Below, in pieces: positions 1,989-56,771 of a stretch of 64,000 bases of DNA. How positions within the stretch are numbered: position 1 is the first letter of the stretch; every line of letters begins with the position of its first letter. Position numbers and translations under genes: made by a program. The stretch lies in the NCBI GenBank assembly GCA_026120185.1, contig JANUWF010001475.1, positions 248,001 to 312,000 on the forward strand, read 5' to 3'. Below the pieces are notes generated by a model. The model was not told the DNA's origin. It did not search any database and saw only the letters and a list, made by a program, of their open reading frames with translations. The stretch comes from Voacanga thouarsii (taxonomy: Eukaryota > Streptophyta > Magnoliopsida > Gentianales > Apocynaceae).

Positions 1989-4900
1989 TGAAATCCCTGT
2001 CGAAACCAACCTTAGAGTAAGGGGGTTGGGATGCATATCATATTTTATTGCATGTTTAAATATATTTTTATATAATTTTATGTGCTTTGGATTTGTATTT
2101 TATAGTCTCGAGGGCTTAATTATGTTTATTGAGTAAGAAAGGCAAAATGGTAATTTTTGCTTGAGGTGAAAATAGGGAGATAGCTTGAGGATTAAATAGG
2201 AAAAATATTTTGGAGAGAAAATAAGAACAAGAGTTGTTGTGGTTTAGTGGTTAGAGCTTTGGAATTAATTCTTGAGGTCTTGGGTTCAAATTCCATCATT
2301 GGAGCTTTAGCATGATTAAATTTTATTTTTGTTTGGGAAGGTTGTATTTTTGGCCTTGTGTGCTTTAGAGAATAGTAGAGGTGTTGTCCTAGGGGAGACA
2401 TGATAGGAGTATCCTAATCCTACTCTTGTGTCCTACAAAAATTTCCAAGGGAATTCATACCCTTCTTGATCCTTAGTTTTTCCTACTTCTCAATTCATTA
2501 GGTTGGTCAATTTGTTCTAGTCAATTTCATTCCAGAAAATTTCAGTAAAGTGCTGTGGCTTTGAAGGTTCAAAAATGTCTAAGTGTAAGACATCTTATGG
2601 ACCAAAAATGGGTAGGAGTTTGGGAAGGTTCCCAAGAGATTAAACTCCATGGTTGAACCTTCAAAACCCCACTCTACCTATGTTCATTTTCTTCATGAAG
2701 TAATCTGGAATTTTTCTAGCTTCTTGTGCATTCAAGGTGTTGAAATTTTCAGCCATCATTCCCTCCCAAATGCTGCCAGAAAATAGCCCTCTTGGCCAAT
2801 TTGAAATCTGAAATTTTATGGCCAAATTCAAACTGCACAAATGCTGTGCAAACCAGAAAATTTTCTGGTCAAATTCGCAGCTTAGGTGAGCTTGAACCAA
2901 GTTGTTTTCTTCCAGTTTTTCACTAGCATCTTAGCCACGTTTTTCTTCCATAAAGAAGGCTGGAAACCAGCCTTGAAAGGCCTCTAAATACCCCTTCAAA
3001 TCTTCTGCAAGTTGGCTGGAAAATGGCAGCAAAAGCTGCCCAGAAATTTGCAGCAGCTAGCGAAATTCTGTACAGGAAATTTTCCAGCCTTGCACCATCT
3101 TCAGCCCTGATCGAAACTTCACCATTTTTCTGTACAAACTTCTCTTGAACAGCCATGAACTGAGCTCCATCATCTTCCCCAACTTTCTACTCGAAAAACC
3201 AGTCATGGTTGCCCCTAAAATATCTCCAACAATTACTCCAATCAAGCCATTGATTGAAAACCAAAATTTCAGCAAATATATTTAGTAAACTTCCATAAAA
3301 CATCACTTAAACAACCAGACATTCCTTCACCATTGTACTCCCTCTTTTCAACCACCATTAAGCTTCTTCAAACAGCTTTCATCCAGCAAAAACTCTGAGC
3401 AAACCAGCCGGCCATTAGAGCTTCCAAAAGCTCTCCTCCATTGAAGATCTTCTTACCATATTTTGTTTCCTAAATTGATTCCCTAAAATATTCTTTTAGG
3501 ATTTCAAACAACCAGCCTTTCCTTTTCCTATTAAAGCAGAAATTCAATTGCCAAAACCCCTCAAACAATTTGGCACTCCAATCCCACAGAATTTCGGCCA
3601 ACTTCAATCAAATCCTCTCCATTCTCTTCAACCTTCAAGAACACCAAGAACACCTACTCACTTTCTCACGCCTAAGGCCACCAAAACCATTTCAATCTTC
3701 TTCAAAAAAAATCCAGATTTCACCTACTCACTTCCATGAATCCATTCATACCACTTTTAACATCAAACTCCAAAATCCAACTCTCTCTCTTAGATCGAAA
3801 ACTAGTATTTTTGTGAAGGCTCAAGAATACCTTCAAGGTAAGCTTGTCTAGTCAACTTCATCTTCACTAATCTTCAACCTCTAATGAATATATGTGTGTA
3901 AAATCATACTAATGGACTATCTTCTTCTCTTCTCTCTCTCTCTCTATCTCTCTCTCTTGACCGAATGATTCCTTCAACAATGGCCATGTTTTCTTCATCT
4001 CTCTTGGACGGATCTAGTCTCCTAGGAGTTGAGATCCATTCAAAACTTCTCCAAGGTACTTATCAATCAAGTAAGCCTCTTCAAACCTCTTTTTAAATTC
4101 TAGATTCATGTCTCTAGGATGATTTTGGAAGGAGATGGATTATGATTACGATTTGAGCATGTATTGTTGTGATGAGTTGAGATTGAAGCATGAATAAATG
4201 TGTGTATATGATGGAGATGTGATTGATGCATGAGTGGATTGTCTTGGTTGATTGTATGGCGTTTTTAGGGTTTAATGCATGTTTCCATGTCGTGAGTGGT
4301 ATATGTGATCAAGTATGTTAGAGATTATATCACCTTTGGTGAATAGGGTTTATGTTCATGTATGATTGTTGAAGCCATGAATATGTTTATGTTGGTAGAG
4401 GTTAGATCATGTCTTGGTAAATTTAGATCTATGCCTTTATTCATAATTTGGATGATTTGATGAATTGAAGTGGAGTATATGTTCATGATTGTGGTTGGCA
4501 ATAGAAATATGATCATGACCTAATTGTCCCTAAGCTAATTTTATTTCTTCAATAAAATAATTAATGCTATAATTTCTTCTAGTAAATTTCGAAAACCCTA
4601 GGAAAATGTGGATTTGGTCCTTTATATAAAATAGTGATATTTTAGTCAAATAAATAATGGCTTTTATTAAAGAAATAAAATATATAGATTTTATATAAAA
4701 TAAAATATATAGAAAATAATAATAAAGCCTTTCATATGAATATTCATAATAGGTAAAATATTAATTTTATAAGTCTTTTATTCATAAATACTATTAAAAT
4801 TTATTTATTATCTTTCAATCAAAACCTATTAAAATTTACTTTCGACTAATTTTAGTTACCAATTATTTTCTAACAAATAATTATTAATAGATTATTATTT

Positions 4901-6186
4901 TACCTAATACCACATAGGACTCTTCATCAAATAAACTCTAATTCATTCTTAGCAAGATTTAAACCTTCAACTTATTAGTACCTATTTCCCAAACCCTAAT
5001 TATTTTAATATCAAATTAGACTTAGCTTATAAACCCTTTTATTTATTATCTGGTCTTAAGCTTGGGACACTAGGATCATGGTTGCAGTAAGTTAAGCTAG
5101 AATTATTTGTAAAGGTGAATCTTGGCTTGAGTTTAATTATGGCTTTGTTTGCCCCAGGCGGGGTTAGGTCAGCTGTTGGAGACCTTTATTTTGAGCAAGG
5201 ATCCAGTAAGCTCCTGCATAAAACTTGTTTGTTGTAAAAGGTTTCTATGGCAAGCTAAACCCGAAGTTTGTGAACACTGGTTTGTTAAGGGCAATTAGGG
5301 ACTGTTTCCTTTCTTGTTTTAATCAAACCAATTATTTGAAAAATAACAAGTAATTTTATGAACTACGTTGAGTACTCAATAAGGGTAGGCTAGTAGTACT
5401 AGTTTTGAAGAGCAAGAGTGAGTTTTTTAGCAAGAGGCCACCTCCAAAAGATGACCTCAACTTAGAGAAACGCCAGTACTACATAGTCATTCCAATCCGA
5501 GCTAGCAGTTTTCAGTTATGTGGACTGTGTGTTGCCAGAGTAGACAACCGATTTTGTTTGGGTGTAGAAAATGAGGAGAATCTTACCCGGTAGGCCGATC
5601 ACCTACCTTTTGTCAGTCTACACAAAGTGTGGCAGTCTAACCGGCAGTATACCCAACGTGTGGCATACTGACCATGTGGACATGGGGCCCAACGTGTGGT
5701 AACCCATAACCACCTTTTTGAGTGGTTGATTTTATTGTACTTGTATGGTTGGAAAAGCCAAAACGCCACTCTTGCTTTTGAACATTATTTATTGCTTGCC
5801 AGTATTTTCCTTATAAGATTCTTACACTTTGCATCCACGAACTGTTTTCACTGGACACTCAAAGCACACACGGACTTACTGAGATATTTATCTCATCACC
5901 CTTTTTACCATGATTTCAGGTCGATCCTGCTTGTGGGGATGAGTAGCTAGTGTTGTCTGCCTTGGAAGAGATTTTGTTATTAATTTTTGTGTAGTGCTTT
6001 GGGAGCTGAGAGTGAATAATTTGATTCTGGATTTGTTTTTGAATTCTTGGATTGTAATAAGTTTTAAGTTTAAAGTATTATTTTTATTCTATTATTTTAA
6101 TTGTGTGACCTAGTTATAAAGACCCCTTATCCTTTGGATGGGGTGACATCCCCAGCCCTATTGGGCCTAGGAAGCGGGGTGTTACA
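1989..6186 (+). mobile_element. Solo LTR of a gypsy-type (Tekay/Del-like) retrotransposon
   Basis: A segment of about 4.2 kb is present here and absent from the otherwise parallel copy at 47872-47882, where the uninterrupted site reads GAATTGGTGTTAAC. The inserted DNA starts TGAAATCCC and ends GGGGTGTTACA, matching the common plant gypsy LTR ends TGTAACACCCC...GGGGTGTTACA with decay at the left. Flanks ATTTG and AGG(TG) look like a degraded ATTGG target duplication. No primer-binding site, polypurine tract or pol coding is visible inside, and a length near 4 kb fits the long LTRs of the Tekay/Del lineage, so I read it as a solo LTR left by LTR-LTR recombination. The clade is inference. Small ORFs within it (e.g. 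3548-3851) look like chance. Confidence 0.65.
2240..2294 (+). other. tRNA-like Pol III A/B box pair inside the LTR
   Basis: TGGTTTAGTGG (2240-2250) fits the A-box consensus and GGTTCAAATTCC (2283-2294) fits a B box with one extra T, at tRNA-like spacing. No complete cloverleaf is evident. It may be a tRNA-derived SINE head or a tRNA relic embedded in the LTR. Weak evidence. Confidence 0.3.
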
Positions 6187-8222: not shown

Positions 8223-8224
<2 letters not shown>

Positions 8225-8227
8225 AAA

Positions 8228-9037
8228 TGCTGTTTTGGATTTGCAATTTGATCTACCTATTCAAGAGACTAGTTTTAATGTTGTTCCTCTGATGGATGTT
8301 GTAATTCATTTGAGAGGTGGTCAAATTTTGAAATAGCTTCCAATCAAGAAGATTTTGATGTTTTTTCCTTTCTGAGAAACCACTTCCTCTTGATTTAAGG
8401 TGGGATACTTTTAAGTCTTTTTTTTTAAAGGGACTTTTCACTCGTCTTCTTCATCTGGTTTGGTTTGTTGTATTATGAATTAGTGAAAGTTATGAACATG
8501 CTACTGTGGAGGAAATGCCTATTGAAGATATCACTTCAAACGAAGTTCCTGTGCAGAAGAAGGTAATCAAGAGCTCCAAGACACTATCAAGAGCAACTAT
8601 TTCGAAGTACTTTTACATGTCAATGACTTGAGCGGCCAAAGAACTGAATGTTTGCCGAACCAGTCTCAAAAAAAGATGTAGGGAGTTGGGAATTCGTAGA
8701 TGGCCTTACAGAAAGTTTATGAGCTTGGAGACCACAATCAAGATTGTTCAGGTTCTTTCTCACACACACTTGTGCATGAAGAACTAATAAAGGAATAGTG
8801 CCTATTGAAAGGTTCCATTTAGATTTGCAGGGTTTGCAAATTGAAGAAGATGGAGTACATATGGCTGAGGAGAGAATGGCCATTGAGATACTGGAACGTG
8901 AGAAGAAATTGATGGAAGAAATCCTTGATGCGAAGTTGGAAGACCAAACAAAGAGGCTGAGACAAGTATGTTTCAAGGCTAAATATGAGAAGAAAAAACT
9001 CAGGGATCTGAAAAAAAGTTTGAGAGGCAGATGTTAG
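8228..9037 (+). pseudogene. RWP-RK domain (RKD-type) transcription factor relic, copy 1
   Basis: RKD proteins are plant transcription factors with a DNA-binding RWP-RK domain. Conceptual pieces in order: an N-terminal segment DLPIQETSFNVVPL and EDFDVFSF (8235-8400); an intron-like gap; SYEHATVEEMP leading into VPVQKKVIK; the RWP-RK domain [19 protein letters not shown] through [10 protein letters not shown] and RRWPYRK (8590-8750); an intron; then a coiled-coil-like tail starting at [16 protein letters not shown] and ending RGRC-stop at 9037. The hallmark RWPxRK is intact, but a TGA stop falls inside the domain (8629-8631) and the N-terminal exon holds stops and a frameshift. The intron after VQ and the splice acceptor TTGCAG before the tail are preserved, so it is not a processed copy. 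A related copy is captured in the Copia element at 35289-36475. Confidence 0.8.
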
Positions 9038-9290
9038 TCTAATTGCTTTGGTTATATAAGGTCACGTTTATGACCTTTCTCAAATTTTCTATACATTTAG
9101 AAGATGCTTAGGCATTAAAATCTATTGCATAAAATTAAGCTTAAGGGTATTCAACTTATTTGGAGTATCAAGATGGAAAAAAAATCGACAGAGTTTCCCC
9201 TATATATTGGACATTTTTAGGCACAAAGCCACCTCAAAATCAACAACATTTAAAAAAAAAAAAACATTAACTATCACAGCAATGCAAGGA

Positions 9291-9362
9291 TAATCACCTA
9301 TTACCCATAGGGAATAATCACCCATCACTCATGAGGAATGATAACCCATCACTCATGGGGAT
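9291..9362. repeat. Short tandem repeat, about 24 bp x 3
   Basis: Three degenerate copies of a unit like ATAATCACCCATCACTCATG lie head to tail. The surrounding 9.05-9.98 kb stretch shows no recognisable gene. Confidence 0.6.
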
Positions 9363-9993
9363 CCATTCTTATAAGTTAAAAAAAAGAGAAAATAGATTAG
9401 CCAAAATAGATAATAGATAAGCTGATGCCTAAGAATCATTCTTACAAGCAAGGCCTAATGCAGGGGCCATTTAATTGCTTGCCAAAATAGATTAGCCCAA
9501 GCTGTTAATAGACACAAGGCTTATCATCATATTCCACTTCTTAAATCCACAGACACTAGGTATGTGGTCTCAGACACATAATTCAATAGAAATGATTCTT
9601 AGGCATCAGCTTTTATATAATGGTCAATGACCTGATCATTTACTGGTGCTGTCTTCCATTCCGCAGAAATAAAAAGAAAATACCAGGAATTAAAGTTTCT
9701 CAAGATATATAAGAATTGTTGTCAATTTTCATCCCCAAAATCATAAATCCAGCACTTTGTAAACCACACTTGAGACTCAACATAGAGTTCCCAAAACCTT
9801 ATCTGAAACATATCTGATACAGTTCAGAATAAAGAAGGTAAAACAATGCCAGACAGATTTTGCTACTGTGACAACAGGAAAGGTAGCAATGCAAAATAAT
9901 TTCCAGGATAAACAAGATGAGGCATAATGAACAACATAAGAGACAAAAAAGGTTGAGATTGGATGATGATGAGCATGTGCAGAGTCTTTTTAC

Positions 9994-30670: not shown

Positions 30671-31584
<914 letters not shown>

Positions 31585-34015: not shown

Positions 34016-34020
34016 CAATA

Positions 34021-34387
34021 TGTTATGAATTATTGGAATCTCCATTAATTAGTGGAGGCTCCACTAATTATGGATTTATGTGAATTATTAGAAGATTTTT
34101 ATGGATGTCCACCATTTAGTGGAGACACCACTAATTAAGATTAGTGGAAGATGATGTATGACATGATGTAATCCACTAATTAGAGCTCTATAAATAGAGT
34201 TATGCTCTAAGCTTGTAAGACACCATCATTTTGTGAAAGAAAGATTAGTGAAAGAAAGATTAGAGAAAGAATTGTGAGAGAAAGAAAGAGAGAAGTTTGA
34301 AGAGAAATTTTTGTGCAAAGAATAGTTAGAATTTTTTTAGTGTGTAGTGTGTAGATTTTATTCTAACACTACCCTAATTTTATAACA
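34021..34387 (+). repeat. 5' LTR of the Copia element
   Basis: TG...CA ends with a TATA box in CTCTATAAATAGAG (34187-34200), a perfect small palindrome, and GAAAGAAAGATTAG direct repeats just downstream. Confidence 0.95.
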
Positions 34388-34799
34388 CATTATCAGGACG
34401 AGTCTCTGTCGTTATTAAAGCCAGAAGATAGGTACGTATTTATTGATCTCGCTAAATTCAAATTTGTAGCCCTTGATATTTCTGGAAAAAAAATTTATAT
34501 GTCATATAGAAATGCATCTAAATGCTAAAAAAAGGAGATCCATATGTCATGTGGATAAAAAGAAAGATTTGACCACCTGAAGATGGTCATACTACCCACT
34601 ACACGGTATGAATGGTTGCACCTGAAGTTGCAAGATTGTAAAACCGTGAACTCCGTGATGTATAAAACTATATCTTAGTTAAAAATTTTGCGGAGAAAAA
34701 GTTACTGATGAAGTTATATTGGAGAAGACATTCTCCACTTTTCATACCTCGAATATTGTCCTGCGGTAACAATATCGAGAAAAAGGGTATCCAAAATTG

Positions 34800-35060
34800 A
34801 CAGGTTTAACATGAGTTATTATTGAGAAATCATGAAGCCAAATGAACTGGCTCAACAGCACTCCCAGAAGTGAATGTTGTTGGCTCCAACAGAAGCCATC
34901 GTTATAGTCGTAGTTGTGGCAGTGGCCGTGGTTATGGTCATGGACACACTCGATATTTCCCTTATCACAGAGAAATATTGGCCACCTGAAGTGGAACGGA
35001 AAAGATAATAAGGGAAAAAGATATTTCCATTAATAATAAGCATCACATCTTTTATTCATA
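34800..35060 (+). pseudogene. Copia gag remnant
   Basis: The plus strand encodes PEVNVVGSNRSHRYSRSCGS followed by GRGYGHGHTRYFPYHRE, the glycine/arginine-rich stretch that precedes the CCHC zinc knuckle in plant Copia Gag. The zinc knuckle itself is not found; coding stops a few codons later, where the captured RWP-RK segment begins. Confidence 0.6.
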
Positions 35061-35288
35061 TCACTAGTGTTCATATGAACTTGATGATACATGCTTATAG
35101 TTGCTCTTTTGTAATTGAGCTGACAAATGTAAGATGAAGGTTTGTAATTGTTCTTTTTCAATATTTACATTAGAGGAAGACAAACAATTAGTAATTATGG
35201 ACTTCAGCTCCTCTTTTTCGACATCCTTCTCCTTTTCTTTCCCCTTTGAGCCGAGCATCGAGACTAGCAGCGAGAATTAGCAGTAAAA

Positions 35289-36475
35289 TTACTTGCGAAA
35301 TGAGTCTTGAGATTTTATGATCTCCTTAAGTTTATTATATTTCTTATTATATTTGGCCTTGAAGCATGCTTGTCTCAATTTACTGTGTTTGGTCCTCTAA
35401 GCTGCGTATTAGGACTTTCTTCCACCAGCTGTTTTTCACATTCCGATATCGCAATGGCTTCTTTTAATTTCTTCTCGGCCATATGTCCTCCTTCTTCTTT
35501 ATTTTGCATATCCTGTAAATCGAAGTGATATCATCGGTTATTTACTTATAAATCTTTCATAGTTTCATACTTGCAAATTATAAGTATGTATGAGAGAGAA
35601 CCTGAACATTCTTGATTATGGTCTCCAAGCTCACCAATTTCCTGTGAGGCCATTGACGAATTCCTAACTCCCTACATCTTTTCTTGAGACGGGTTATGCC
35701 AATATTCAATTCTTTGGCTGCGCTCTTGATTGGTAGGTAAAAGTACTGCGAAATTGTTTCTCTTGATGGTGTCTGGGAGTTATTGCCCTTCTTCTCTCTC
35801 TGCCTCTTAATCATCCTTCTCCCCAGGAATTTTGTCTGCAATAATATCTTGAACTTCGATATTATGCATTTCATGAGTACTTACTCCGACTTCGTTGCCA
35901 AGACCACTCATTATTTCTCCTAGAAAAAGAAAATAATATCAGTAAAGGTAATACCATTCAAAATCCATGTTTAAATGTATAATAACCTGGAAACATATTA
36001 TGGCTTTGTTCAAAATCCATTAGAGAGTAGAAAGGATCATGCACAAGCATATCCTCATTCAAAGGAATAGCATCAAGAGGAACAGTATCAAAAGTAGTCT
36101 CTTGTAGGGGCAGATCAACTTGGTCCAAAGTAGTATGTTCAAAACTTCCACTGATTTACATAAAAAACAAACCAAAAGAGAGTTTAATTTCATTATCAAG
36201 CACACTAAAAACAAATGGAAGCCCTCAAAGGTATCTCACCTAAAATTAGGAGGAAGTGGTTGGTTTGGAAAGGAAAACATATCAAAATCTTCTGCGTTCA
36301 AATTAGACAGAAGCGGTTGGTTTGGAAAGGAAAACATATCAAAATCTTCTGTGTTCGAATTAGGCAGAAGCGGTTGGTTTGGAAAGGAAAATACATCAAA
36401 ATCTGTTGCAGAAACCGAGTCAAATTTTGACCATATCTCAAATGAATTACGAGTCTCTATATCTGCTTTGTGATT
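35289..36475 (-). pseudogene. RWP-RK (RKD-type) gene captured inside the Copia element, copy 2
   Basis: Four minus-strand exons with consistent GT/AG sites and phases: 36240 to about 36475 (NSFEIWSKFDSVS, then three 19-residue repeats EDFDMFSFPNQPL...); 35987-36150 (TLDQVDLPLQETTFDTVPL); 35602-35919 (EIMSGLGNEVGV, then the RWP-RK domain [43 protein letters not shown]); 35289-35512 (MAEKKLKEAIAI, a frameshift, RQACFKAKYNKK). One extra A before KRQREKK (GAAGGATGATTAAG) breaks the frame upstream of the domain, and the signature RWPxRK reads QWPHRK. Introns are retained although the carrier moves through RNA, which is expected only because the gene is antisense to the element. Confidence 0.85.
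36262..36420 (-). repeat. 57-bp in-frame tandem repeat, three units
   Basis: GGTTTGGAAAGGAAAA recurs at 36262, 36319 and 36376, exactly 57 bp apart, so each unit encodes 19 residues of the DFDMFSFPNQPL type in the first RWP-RK exon. Copy 1 at 8.3 kb has a single diverged unit. Confidence 0.9.
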
Positions 36476-36714
36476 TTTGTTTTTGATGTTTACTAATGAC
36501 TGATGACTGAAATATATATCGAATACATATATATATATATATATATGTATGAAGAAGAAGAAGAGGTAGATGGTAGGTAGAGGGTCGGAGGAGAAGAAAA
36601 GACAAGAGAGGAAGAGGAAAAGTCGGTACCGAGAAGAGTGAAAAAAAAAAAAGATATTTTTCTTGGCATTTTCTGCTTGTCATCATTTTCTTATATTTCT
36701 TTTCTTATTCTCTT

Positions 36715-37380
36715 GTGAAATCATTATTCCCTAAATTATGGGGAGAACCAAAACAGCATAAAAAAGATCTTGCTTGGACAACATCATTAAATTATCTTGA
36801 TCCGCGCACAAGCGCATGTGAACTTGAAGTTCAAAAGATAATTTATTTGCAAAGCATTGCAAATCAAATGCCAGACGCTTTTGTTGACTCCAGAAGAATT
36901 ACAAAATCATATATTCCAGCTATAAATACTTCTATTCGGATTGAAGTTCCAGCAGAACAAAATATTATACCTATAGCTCTGCTGAGTCAAAAACACGCCA
37001 GAAACGTGGCCGACCTCTTGGTTCTAAAGATAAAAATCCTCGAAAGAAAAGAGGATTAAATGATCCAGAAAATCATATTGAAGAAAAGAATGATAAAGAC
37101 CAAGAGAGAATTGATGACAAAGAACCAAAAGTTGATGAAAGTAACACTGAAATTTCTATCAATTATACCACTTCCGGTAGAAGTTGGAATCGGATAGAAA
37201 CTGTTATTGATAATATATTTGCATACAATATATCTCTTGATGTTACATAAGATAATGATGATCCTGAACCAATATCAGTTGATGAATGTCGGCATAAAAA
37301 AGATTGGCTGCAATGGAAAAATGCGATTCAATCGGAGTTAAATGCACTGACAAAACGTGAAGTCTTCGGACCTACAAATG
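36715..37380 (+). pseudogene. Copia pol, region between integrase and reverse transcriptase
   Basis: Encodes DLAWTTSLNYLDPRTSACEL and VQKIIYLQSIANQMPDAFVD, then a charged linker and RHKKDWLQWKNAIQSELNAL leading into reverse transcriptase, as in plant Copia polyproteins. A stop after the linker (LDVT*) and frame changes near 37050 and 37390 break it. The integrase core upstream is absent. Confidence 0.8.
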
Positions 37381-37387
37381 GATATTT

Positions 37388-38862
37388 GTGCGAAAGCGCA
37401 ATGAAAAGAGTGAAATCGTTCGATATAAAGCGCGATTAGTAGCCCAATGTTTTTCACAAAGACCAGGTATTGATTATGATGAAACTTATTCTCCTGTTGT
37501 TGATGCTATTACACTCCGATATCTTATCAGTTTGGCAGTACATGAAAAGATAGATATGCGCCTATTAGATGTTATTCTCGCTTACTTGTATGGAAATTTA
37601 GAAAATGATGTTTACATGAAAATCCCGAAGGATTTCATATGCCCGAAGCATATAAACATTATCCTCGTGAAAATTACTCCATCAAGTTGCGAAATCATTA
37701 TATGGCTCTGAAGCAATCTGGGCGCATGTGGTTCACACGTCTTAGTGAATATTTATTGAAAGCGGGATTTAAAAATGACCAGGTATGTCCATGTGTTTTT
37801 ATTAAGAAATCTGGTTCTAAGTTTGTGATATTAGCTATATATGTTGATGATATTAATCTTATTGGAATTCCTAAAGAGCTCCAAGAAACAATTGATTATT
37901 TAAAAAGAGAATTTGAAATCAAGGATTTTGGTAAAACCAAATTTTGCCTTGGTTTACAAATTGAACATCTGGAGAGTCGAACATTTATTCATCAATCAAC
38001 ATATACAGCAAAAGTGCTAAACAGATTTTACATGGACAAAGCACATCCATTGAGTATTCCAATGATTGTCCGATCATTAAATGTGGATAAAGATCCTTTC
38101 CGACCTCAAGAAAATGATGAAGAACTCCTTGGTCCTGAAGTACCATATCTCAGTGCAATTGGTGCATTGATGTATCTTGCTAATACTACACGACCTGATA
38201 TTGCTTTTGCTGTCAATTTATTAGCAAGATTTAGTTCTTCACCAACACGACGACATTGGAATGGAATTAAACAAGTCCTTCGATATCTCCAAGGTACAAT
38301 TTATCTCGGATTATTTTATTCAAATAAAATCAGTCCAACATTGATAGGTTATGTAGATGCTGGTTATTTATCTGATCCACATAAAGCACGTTCTCAAACG
38401 GGTTATCTATTTACATGTGAAAATACTGCTATATCATGGCGTTCTACGAAACAATCTATAGCAGCTACTTCTTCAAATCATGCTGAAATTATAGCCATTC
38501 ATGAAGCAAGTCGAGAATGTGTATGGCTAAGATCCATGATTCATTATATCCGAGAAAGTTGTGGATTATCATCAATCAAAGATATTCCAACTCCTCTTTA
38601 TGAAAACAATGCAGCTTGCATAGCTCAATTACGAGGAGGATATATTAAAGGAGATCGGACAAAACATATTTCACCAAAATTCTTCTTTACTCATGAACTC
38701 CAGAAGAAATGTGAAATTGATGTGCTACAAATTCGATCATGTGATAACCTCGTAGATATTTTCACGAAGACTTTACCGACTGCAACATTTGAGAAGTTGA
38801 AATATAAAATCGGTATGCGTCGGTTTAAAGATTTAAAGGAATCATCTCATCAGGGGGAGTAA
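37388..38862 (+). pseudogene. Copia reverse transcriptase and RNase H, frameshifted
   Basis: The first frame (37388-37660) has VRYKARLVAQCFSQRPGIDY and YSPVVDAITLRYLISLAVHE. After a frame change near 37650 the second frame (to 38862, 407 codons) has SGRMWFTRLSEYLLKAGF, the catalytic YVDDINLIG, then RNase H-like segments IGALMYLANTTRPDIAF, ARSQTGYLFTC and TSSNHAEIIAIHEASRECVW, ending at HQGE-stop. The enzyme copies element RNA to DNA. Domains are well preserved but the single frameshift and the incomplete upstream pol mean no functional polyprotein. Confidence 0.9.
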
Positions 38863-38986
38863 TAAACAGACATATAGAATAGTGTACTCTTTTTCCTTCA
38901 CTAGATTTTTTTTCCCACTGGGTTTTTATCTAATAAGGTTTTAACGAGGCATATTCTTTATGTATGGATGGACATCCAAGGGGGAG

Positions 38987-39353
38987 TGTTATGAATTATT
39001 GGAATCTCCATTAATTAGTGGAGGCTCCACTAATTATGGATTTATGTGAATTATTAGAAGATTTTTATGGATGTCCACCATTTAGTGGAGACACCACTAA
39101 TTAAGATTAGTGGAAGATGATGTATGCCATGATGTAATCCACTAATTAGAGCTCTATAAATAGAGCTATACTCTAAGCTTGTAAGACACCATCATTTTGT
39201 GAAAGAAAGATTAGTGAAAGAAAGATTAGAGAAAGAATTGTGAGAGAAAGAAAGAGAGAAGTTTGAAGAGAAATTTTTGTGCAAAGAATAGTTAGAATTT
39301 TCTTAGTGTGTAGTGTGTAGATTTTATTCTAACACTACCCTAATTTTATAACA
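38987..39353 (+). repeat. 3' LTR of the Copia element
   Basis: Same length and ends as the 5' LTR; differences seen include ATGACATG/ATGCCATG and GAGTTATGCTC/GAGCTATACTC. Confidence 0.95.
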
Positions 39354-40575
39354 CAATATAAAATATCAGGTCTCTTATGTAGTTTATATCTAGATTAATT
39401 TTCTAATTATTCAATCTGGGCATTAGGCCCTGAATAATTAATTACCCAATTAAGTTAGATAAAATATATACTCTCTCTCGAATCTTTTATTTTATTCTAG
39501 TCTAATAATAAATTAGACTATTTAAATAAAATAAAATAAAACCCACAATTATCAAAACCAATTCCTTAACCCAAATCTATCAGGACTTAAGGGTCATTTC
39601 GGGGACCAAAAGACACATCACCTTAGCTACTAAAATAACCAAAATACCCCTATTATATAAATAGCTATATTTTATATTTTAAATATTTTCTAATATCACC
39701 ATAAGAAAAAATTGACCCCAAGGACAATGCTGCGTTAGTAAAATCTTCGACCTCCAGGTGTAATAACTAAAATATCCATCTACGCATCGTCGTGCATTTA
39801 GAGAGGAGGAATGTACTAACACCTCTCTAATAGACACCAACCATCCTTGGACCTCTAATCTAATGATCCATGACTCCTAGAATGTTTTCACTTTTCAAGG
39901 GAGTTACCCTAAAGTAAACATCCAAATCATGTTCCTCAAGACTCTAGATAATTAGATCATTTGAATAGTTACAAGAGACGATATATTGTAAAAGCTATCT
40001 TGTACAAGTCTATCTTAACTAACTAGTCACATATACTCAACATACAAGTATATCGGCTCTACAAAAGAACCTCAACTACAGTATATCAAAGTATATGCTT
40101 CTTGCTTTGTCAGACCACCAACTCATACTCAATCGGTAAAGTATTAATCCACATTGTAGCAGTAATAGTGTGGGTTTCTTCTAAATAATACTTTTAGAAA
40201 CTACTATTACATGTCCTGTTCTACGTATTCGAAATACGCTTATGCTATGAAGTGAGTGGACTACTCACTGGTTAAAGATAAGCCATTCTTCATTTGGAAT
40301 TCATAACACAATAACCTATACATGATGAGATTCCCATTCTCATCAATCGGTTAAGAACAAATATTTATGTGTTAAGTAACCCATGATTCATACCTTATTG
40401 TAAAAGACCGCCATTCACATGGATCACTTACTTAAACACAATGGGTCCTTTCCAAATGAAAATCGTGCACAAAGAAAGTGTAAATTTACAAATAAATTTT
40501 GAGAATAAATTCTTTTATTAATAAATTCGATAATTACATCAGATAAAATTAGTCTAGAGGGCATATATTCCAACA
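39354..40575 (-). mobile_element. Older Copia-type LTR interrupted by the young Copia element
   Basis: The right edge reads GGGCATATATTCCAACA, the reverse complement of TGTTGGAATATATGCCC, a common start of plant Copia LTRs on the minus strand. The sequence between 39930 and 40560 shares ordered words with degraded LTRs at 6390-6990 and 48080-48700 (AACATACAAG, TATATCAAAGTATAT, AGTAATAGT, AAATACGCTTA). No internal coding region adjoins it, so it appears to be a solo or truncated LTR. Its other end is probably left of 34020, meaning the young element landed inside it. Confidence 0.5.
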
Positions 40576-54960: not shown

Positions 54961-54968
54961 TAATATTA

Positions 54969-56771
<1,803 letters not shown>

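Follow-up and report, generated by a model that had tools for sequence, protein, structure and literature searches.

Several plant long terminal repeat (LTR) retrotransposons carry additional genes or gene pieces. Maize Bs1 contains parts of three genes, and in none of them is the open reading frame (ORF) full-length (PMC13317346). Genes transduced by plant LTR elements are described as low in copy number (one or a few) and mostly in sense orientation, and additional antisense ORFs are often present in most copies of their element, their origin being given as unknown (PMC7264820). Several of the antisense ORFs of Grande, RIRE2, Retand and PvRetro13 have been suggested to encode DNA-binding or nuclear proteins (PMC7264820, PMC11963269); Retand has antisense TRP28 genes with predicted DNA binding (PMC11963269). 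Orchid Gypsy elements of 25 kb encode an AlkB-type RNA demethylase, and a screen of 121 plant genomes recorded uncommon domains, 15 in total, in Gypsy elements but in no Copia element; the string 'RWP' is absent from the main text of that screen, which mentions Copia elements with envelope-like genes (PMC9289625). Here we describe a 5,333-bp Copia element in a window of 64,000 nucleotides from Voacanga thouarsii (G000:C737:248001-312000; plant assembly of 1,345,666,469 bases in 1,848 contigs). The best overall explanation, which we hold to be very probable, is that this element belongs to a large non-autonomous Ty1/Copia family carrying a complete RKD gene in antisense orientation.

The organisation of the element is as follows (window positions):

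34016..34020, no strand: left target site duplication CAATA, flanking the 5' LTR
34021..34387, plus: 5' LTR, TGTTAT...ATAACA, 367 bp, 4 mismatches to the 3' LTR
34388..35018, plus: leader and gag remnant without a long open frame
35019..36718, minus: captured RKD segment, the whole gene with 5' and 3' flanks (ends approximate, to a few bases)
35064..35512, minus: RKD exon 4 up to the stop; an AATAAA lies on this strand near 35056
35602..35919, minus: RKD exon 3 with the RWP-RK domain, frameshifted in the window copy
35987..36150, minus: RKD exon 2
36240..36460, minus: RKD exon 1, whose start codon is lost in the window copy; 57-bp repeats at 36243-36413
36719..37250, plus: end of integrase and linker, interrupted
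37251..38862, plus: Copia-type reverse transcriptase and RNase H, the first part interrupted
38987..39353, plus: 3' LTR, 367 bp
39354..39358, no strand: right target site duplication CAATA, flanking the 3' LTR

An earlier note, made from the sequence alone, had described a 5.3-kb Copia element with near-identical LTRs and CAATA duplications, holding an antisense RWP-RK gene with three introns between gag and the end of integrase. The LTRs (367 bp, 4 mismatches), the CAATA on both sides and the intron-bearing minus-strand gene were all borne out; the position of the insert was as described, but gag is only a remnant. The LTRs end in TG...CA and the target duplication is 5 bp long, as in Ty1/Copia elements, and two parts of the reverse transcriptase matched PF07727 RVT_2 (E = 2.3e-21 and 2.3e-23). 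A 417-amino-acid open stretch (37609-38862) lies within the reverse transcriptase/RNase H region. Integrase precedes reverse transcriptase in the window remnants and in an RKD-less relative (described below), and position 35018 ends the last stretch on the gag side that matches this relative. Protease and the integrase core are absent; since the element thus has no working gag, protease or integrase of its own, we call it non-autonomous. Many copies, RKD-bearing and RKD-less, share a deletion of ~165 nt in the RNase H part; comparison with L029, L031 and others showed that this stretch is kept in the window copy (within 37251-38862) and in some others.

The chimeric element, which has neither its own integrase core nor a working gag, has dispersed through the genome. 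A pattern of 23 bases from the RWP-RK exon (at most 2 mismatches) matched 1,576 + 1,550 = 3,126 places genome-wide, and a pattern of 33 bases across the junction of RKD and integrase (at most 3 mismatches) matched 1,240 + 1,270 = 2,510 places. The uninterrupted sequence of RKD-less elements (38 bases, at most 3 mismatches) was found at 1,795 + 1,819 = 3,614 places; the ratio 2,510 : 3,614 is rough because the two patterns are of unequal length. The reversed-pattern control for the exon gave 0 matches, as did the controls for the other two patterns. Ten-kilobase loci were taken around RWP-RK matches, and 18 of 20 contained RKD together with Copia parts; the remaining two were L009, without Copia, and L020, a non-Copia RKD. 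Exact 5-bp duplications, all different, were present in 15 of the 18 elements with both ends visible, and those of the other 3 differed at one base. One of the 15, ATATA, sits in a simple repeat. Five further RKD places, cut by the end of a stretch or without an LTR, stand outside this count. Host-gene sequence has thus been carried inside LTRs to new sites, and the check proposed in the earlier note, a search for other insertions with the same LTRs and insert and their own duplications, gave a positive result.

The Kimura two-parameter (K2P) divergence of 16 LTR pairs, with LTR ends taken from BLAST, ranged from 0.008 to 0.110 (0.8-11%). At the substitution rate for rice of 1.3e-8 per site per year, this corresponds to roughly 0.3 to 4 million years. 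The spread indicates repeated movement of the family, introns included, through a long period. Among the variants of the family, L029 (C464:1118400-1122990) is a copy of ~4.2 kb with a 5-bp duplication that has lost most of RKD, a deletion derivative. At G000:C198:1601250-1604354, six matches to the RWP-RK exon pattern lie ~616 bp apart on one strand, forming a tandem array of an RKD piece. A longer insert in L015 was set aside as a nested insertion.

The junction between RKD and integrase was found with at most 2 mismatches in 32 of 38 RKD loci (L010-L030, L032-L048), old copies included (L015, L034, L036, L039, L043, L046). It was missing at six: the non-Copia RKDs L020, L038 and L040; L032 and L041, where similarity to the element ends before the junction; and L019, where the miss is unexplained. 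Nor was it present in L049-L056, where the pattern had 12 or more mismatches; L049 and L020 are one and the same place. The common junction, the differing duplications and the wide range of LTR ages together point to one capture followed by long mobilisation with the introns kept. Since the introns are present, the capture was from DNA or an antisense transcript and not from mRNA. As a correction to the earlier note, the capture is common to a large family and predates the window insertion.

We compared the element with one RKD-less relative, located on C540 (L031 and part of L025), whose LTRs are 96.5-97% identical to those of the window. The ~1.70 kb of the captured segment (35019-36718) stand in place of ~1.69 kb of this relative, which at that position has Pol_BBD, GAG-pre-integrase, integrase core and SH3 domains. 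The relative contains an open gag stretch of 274 amino acids and an open stretch of 430 amino acids with Pol_BBD, GAG-pre-integrase, rve and SH3 domains, and it exemplifies an element that could supply proteins to the RKD family. As the gag of the RKD family is dead and its integrase core missing, movement in trans, which the earlier note had also proposed, is the natural reading. The LTR promoter would produce a genomic RNA with RKD in antisense; the RKD introns would remain unspliced in this RNA and be carried through reverse transcription, and particles, reverse transcriptase and integrase would come from RKD-less relatives sharing the LTRs. The antisense orientation of RKD relative to the genomic RNA would thus explain why the introns survive, and their presence in the copies agrees with what the note had argued.

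The captured gene encodes an RWP-RK domain (Pfam PF02042, minus strand, E = 1.8e-21) containing the motif RWPHRK. The gene model, built from splice signals common to the element copies, has four exons and three introns of 89, 67 and 89 bp, an arrangement also found in other copies; the number of 57-bp repeats in exon 1 differs between copies. A protein search with the element RKD gave 306 matches. The top ten were 41-47% identical, and the named proteins among them were mostly RKD1/RKD2 or RWP-RK proteins. Among the best 120 of the 306 matches, the domain was closest to RKD proteins, which places it in the RKD subfamily, and no close copy of the element RKD was present among these 120.

The window copy of RKD is broken: its start codon is lost, exon 3 is frameshifted and exon 4 has gained single bases at several places. 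We rejected a fourth intron of 49 nt in exon 3; the frame jump there is a short loss that, among the aligned copies, occurs in the window copy only. The start codon is present in 28 of the 34 element copies spanning all exons. A complete start-to-stop frame was found in 6 of the 34, four of them with all splice sites canonical, and the other 28 lack one; this fraction is not unbiased, because the score of the RWP-RK domain decided the choice of the first 20 loci, and a perfect match to a 23-mer within it that of 17 more. Single-base gains are concentrated in few copies (window, L042, L045, L047). Where dense (window 35064-35512; L042, L045, L047), they resemble unpolished long-read errors in repeats, so the per-copy frame counts may be too pessimistic, and some of the gains in exon 4 of the window copy may be assembly noise.

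Judged from the sampled copies, the RKD frame was kept better than gag and pol in the source lineage. Across 21 family copies (including L029, with most of its RKD lost), stop-free stretches in the gag region reached at most 47 to 147 amino acids, so that none of these copies has a long gag frame, and deletions of 29 and 16 nt in gag were found in all five copies compared with the RKD-less one. In pol, one stop codon in the L030 frame is common to 17 of 18 copies and another to 7 of 19. We sorted single-base coding variants by the number of copies carrying them, with expectations matched to mutation types. RKD variants present in 4 or more of 36 copies comprised 121 nonsynonymous (N), 68 synonymous (S) and 0 stop variants (expected 128.0, 52.3 and 8.7). 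The absence of stops from these 189 widely shared variants has a nominal p of 1.3e-4. Private RKD variants comprised 207 N, 63 S and 11 stops (expected 197.9, 65.3 and 17.8). When restricted to the 19 copies for which pol was counted too, RKD had 47 N, 43 S and 0 stops (expected 61.3, 24.3 and 4.4), and pol had 75 N, 38 S and 6 stops among its 119 variants (expected 84.3, 28.2 and 6.5). RKD stops were still low when C>T and G>A changes were left out (0 versus 3.4 expected, p = 0.031). Those exon indels common to 5 or more copies whose limits could be set measured 3, 57, 9, 3, 15, 3 and 15 nt, all multiples of three; for overlapping indels in the repeats of exon 1 no limits could be set. Single-base indels common to 2-4 copies also occur, chiefly in L042, L045 and L047. 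Intron indels were mixed (3, 23, 1 and 1 nt; 8 nt in 4 copies; and homopolymer changes). A scripted count of shared and private indels showed no difference (p = 0.53) and was blurred by alignment noise; since the events were afterwards read by eye, the multiple-of-three evidence is soft.

A number of observations weigh against selection for RKD and against the supply of proteins by relatives. RKD variants in 2-3 copies comprised 112 N, 46 S and 12 stops (expected 110.7, 47.8 and 11.5), although these are mostly C>T and G>A and therefore probably recurrent hits. The N/S ratio of widely shared RKD variants was 0.73 of neutral (36 copies), a difference that was not significant without C>T and G>A (p = 0.24), and N/S was lowered in pol too, to 0.66 of neutral. 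Variants are not independent events, so that the p-values are nominal, and the copies were sampled by RWP-RK score or by a 23-mer in the domain rather than at random. Between clades, the nonsynonymous divergence (dN) was about equal to intron divergence; for this reason the pairwise ratio of dN to synonymous divergence (dN/dS) of RKD, mostly 0.3-0.6, was not used as proof. Finally, the reverse transcriptase region of the examined RKD-less relative is interrupted, which makes it only a candidate helper. With N/S weak and stops lacking, the firmer signal is retention of the frame and not strong conservation of the protein: the frame was retained in the source lineage, yet is broken in most sampled copies.

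Host RKD genes promote the identity of the egg cell, and their expression elsewhere switches on egg-like programmes (PMC6013762). Given this action in the egg cell, germline expression of the element RKD is a natural hypothesis, and it may have a role in egg or embryo. The captured 5' region could drive a spliced RKD mRNA from intact copies, and RKD protein could have favoured the copies bearing RKD, so that the frame was kept; in the simplest form, it would increase transcription of the element in the female germline. Whether the frame was kept through such a benefit to the element or as a pure passenger appears to us about even. The specific scenario, in which intact copies make RKD that increases transcription of the element in the female germline and RKD-less relatives supply particles and integrase, seems rather unlikely. 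As a passenger, RKD would simply have fitted in size and been harmless, its frame surviving because few source copies fed the bursts; we give this somewhat less than an even chance. The similar lengths of the replaced (~1.69 kb) and inserted (~1.70 kb) sequences, the weak amino-acid constraint, with dN about equal to intron divergence, and the 28 of 34 copies without a complete frame all fit a passenger. It does not readily account for the lack of stops among widely shared variants (0 of 189, 8.7 expected), for their absence in the same 19 copies whose pol shows no lack of stops, or for the clade-defining exon indels, which, where they can be delimited, are multiples of three. An RNA role, in which the antisense RKD transcript pairs with the genomic RNA and the resulting small RNAs adjust how strongly the element or host RKD genes are silenced, is improbable: it would suit the antisense orientation, and a similar role has been proposed for antisense genes of plant LTR elements (PMC7264820), but it leaves the retention of an open frame unexplained.

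The origin of the insert bears on a further alternative, that RKD first multiplied outside Copia, perhaps through a hAT transposon, and that Copia took up one of the dispersed copies. RKD sequence seems to have multiplied outside Copia as well: a second RKD-like group, to which window 8224-9391 belongs, was found at 206 + 212 = 418 places (pattern of 29 bases, at most 2 mismatches; control 0), and within the stretches examined its flanks have no Copia proteins. L020, L038 and L040 fall outside most element copies in the tree, and hAT transposase sequence lies head to head with RKD in L020 and L052. However, hAT sequence occurs at only these 2 loci, where transposon ends and 8-bp duplications were not established, the second group may be plain pseudogenes of the donor, and L039 and L046, which have the Copia junction, adjoin the second group in the tree. 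We regard prior multiplication as possible but doubtful. That RKD entered the window copy after integration as a nested insertion, or that the structure was produced by misassembly or segmental duplication, is vanishingly improbable. Nothing was found in favour of this beyond the caution of the earlier note, and the same junction at 2,510 places with different target duplications at 15 copies refutes it; RKD-less relatives do exist, but the refuting result named in the note, an insert added to this copy after integration, was not seen. The preferred reading remains a dispersed non-autonomous Copia family with a captured antisense RKD.

Window 8224-9391 (plus strand) is itself a rearranged and broken RKD-like copy with an intron and without Copia parts, 74% identical to the element RKD over the main match. 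In L020 (C2:1961723-1971666), at 3330-5697, and in L052, Dimer_Tnp_hAT, hAT-like RNase-H and weak zf-BED matches lie beside the non-Copia RKD. The dispersed non-Copia RKDs are related to the insert but diverged. Two donor candidates, L009 and the second match in L010, are host RWP-RK genes clearly different from the insert and were rejected.

If the germline scenario were true, a captured developmental transcription factor would serve the retrotransposon as an accessory gene, comparable in role to retroviral trans-activators. RKD would then be the only maintained protein gene of a family that has given up its own enzymes, and insertions made in the germline would be inherited. Apart from this, extra RKD sequences number in the thousands in a single genome; a few of those sampled appear intact, and gametophyte identity, small RNAs and gene annotation may be affected. 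The family also represents a high-copy antisense gene of clear host origin inside a plant LTR element, so that benefit of an accessory gene to its element becomes a directly testable question.

Elsewhere in the window, 30898-31584, 54966-55647 and 55833-56771 (minus strand) are class III (hevamine-like, GH18) chitinase genes or pieces forming a local cluster. Among the best 120 matches, identity was 69% to Hevea, 72% to Cinchona (the best named plant) and 82% to a metagenome protein.

The matches listed in the open-licence PMC literature contained no report of a retrotransposon carrying RWP-RK or RKD. The family resembles host RKD1/RKD2-like genes in its RWP-RK domain with the RWPHRK motif; it differs from them in its location in a retrotransposon and in being 41-47% identical to the top ten matches. 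Like maize Bs1, it is a plant LTR element bearing host gene sequence (PMC13317346), but it holds a whole gene with introns, in antisense and in thousands of copies. With Grande, RIRE2, Retand and PvRetro13 it shares a high-copy antisense gene inside a plant LTR element (PMC7264820, PMC11963269). The ORFs of those elements lie between pol and the 3' LTR, and introns are unmentioned in the text consulted, whereas RKD lies between gag and the end of integrase, has a recognisable host origin and contains three introns. The orchid Gypsy elements with AlkB offer a parallel in that a host-type domain has become fixed in an LTR lineage, with a possible benefit to the element (PMC9289625). The RKD family thus unites features that have been treated apart: a Copia element, a host transcription factor, a complete intron-bearing gene, antisense orientation and thousands of copies.

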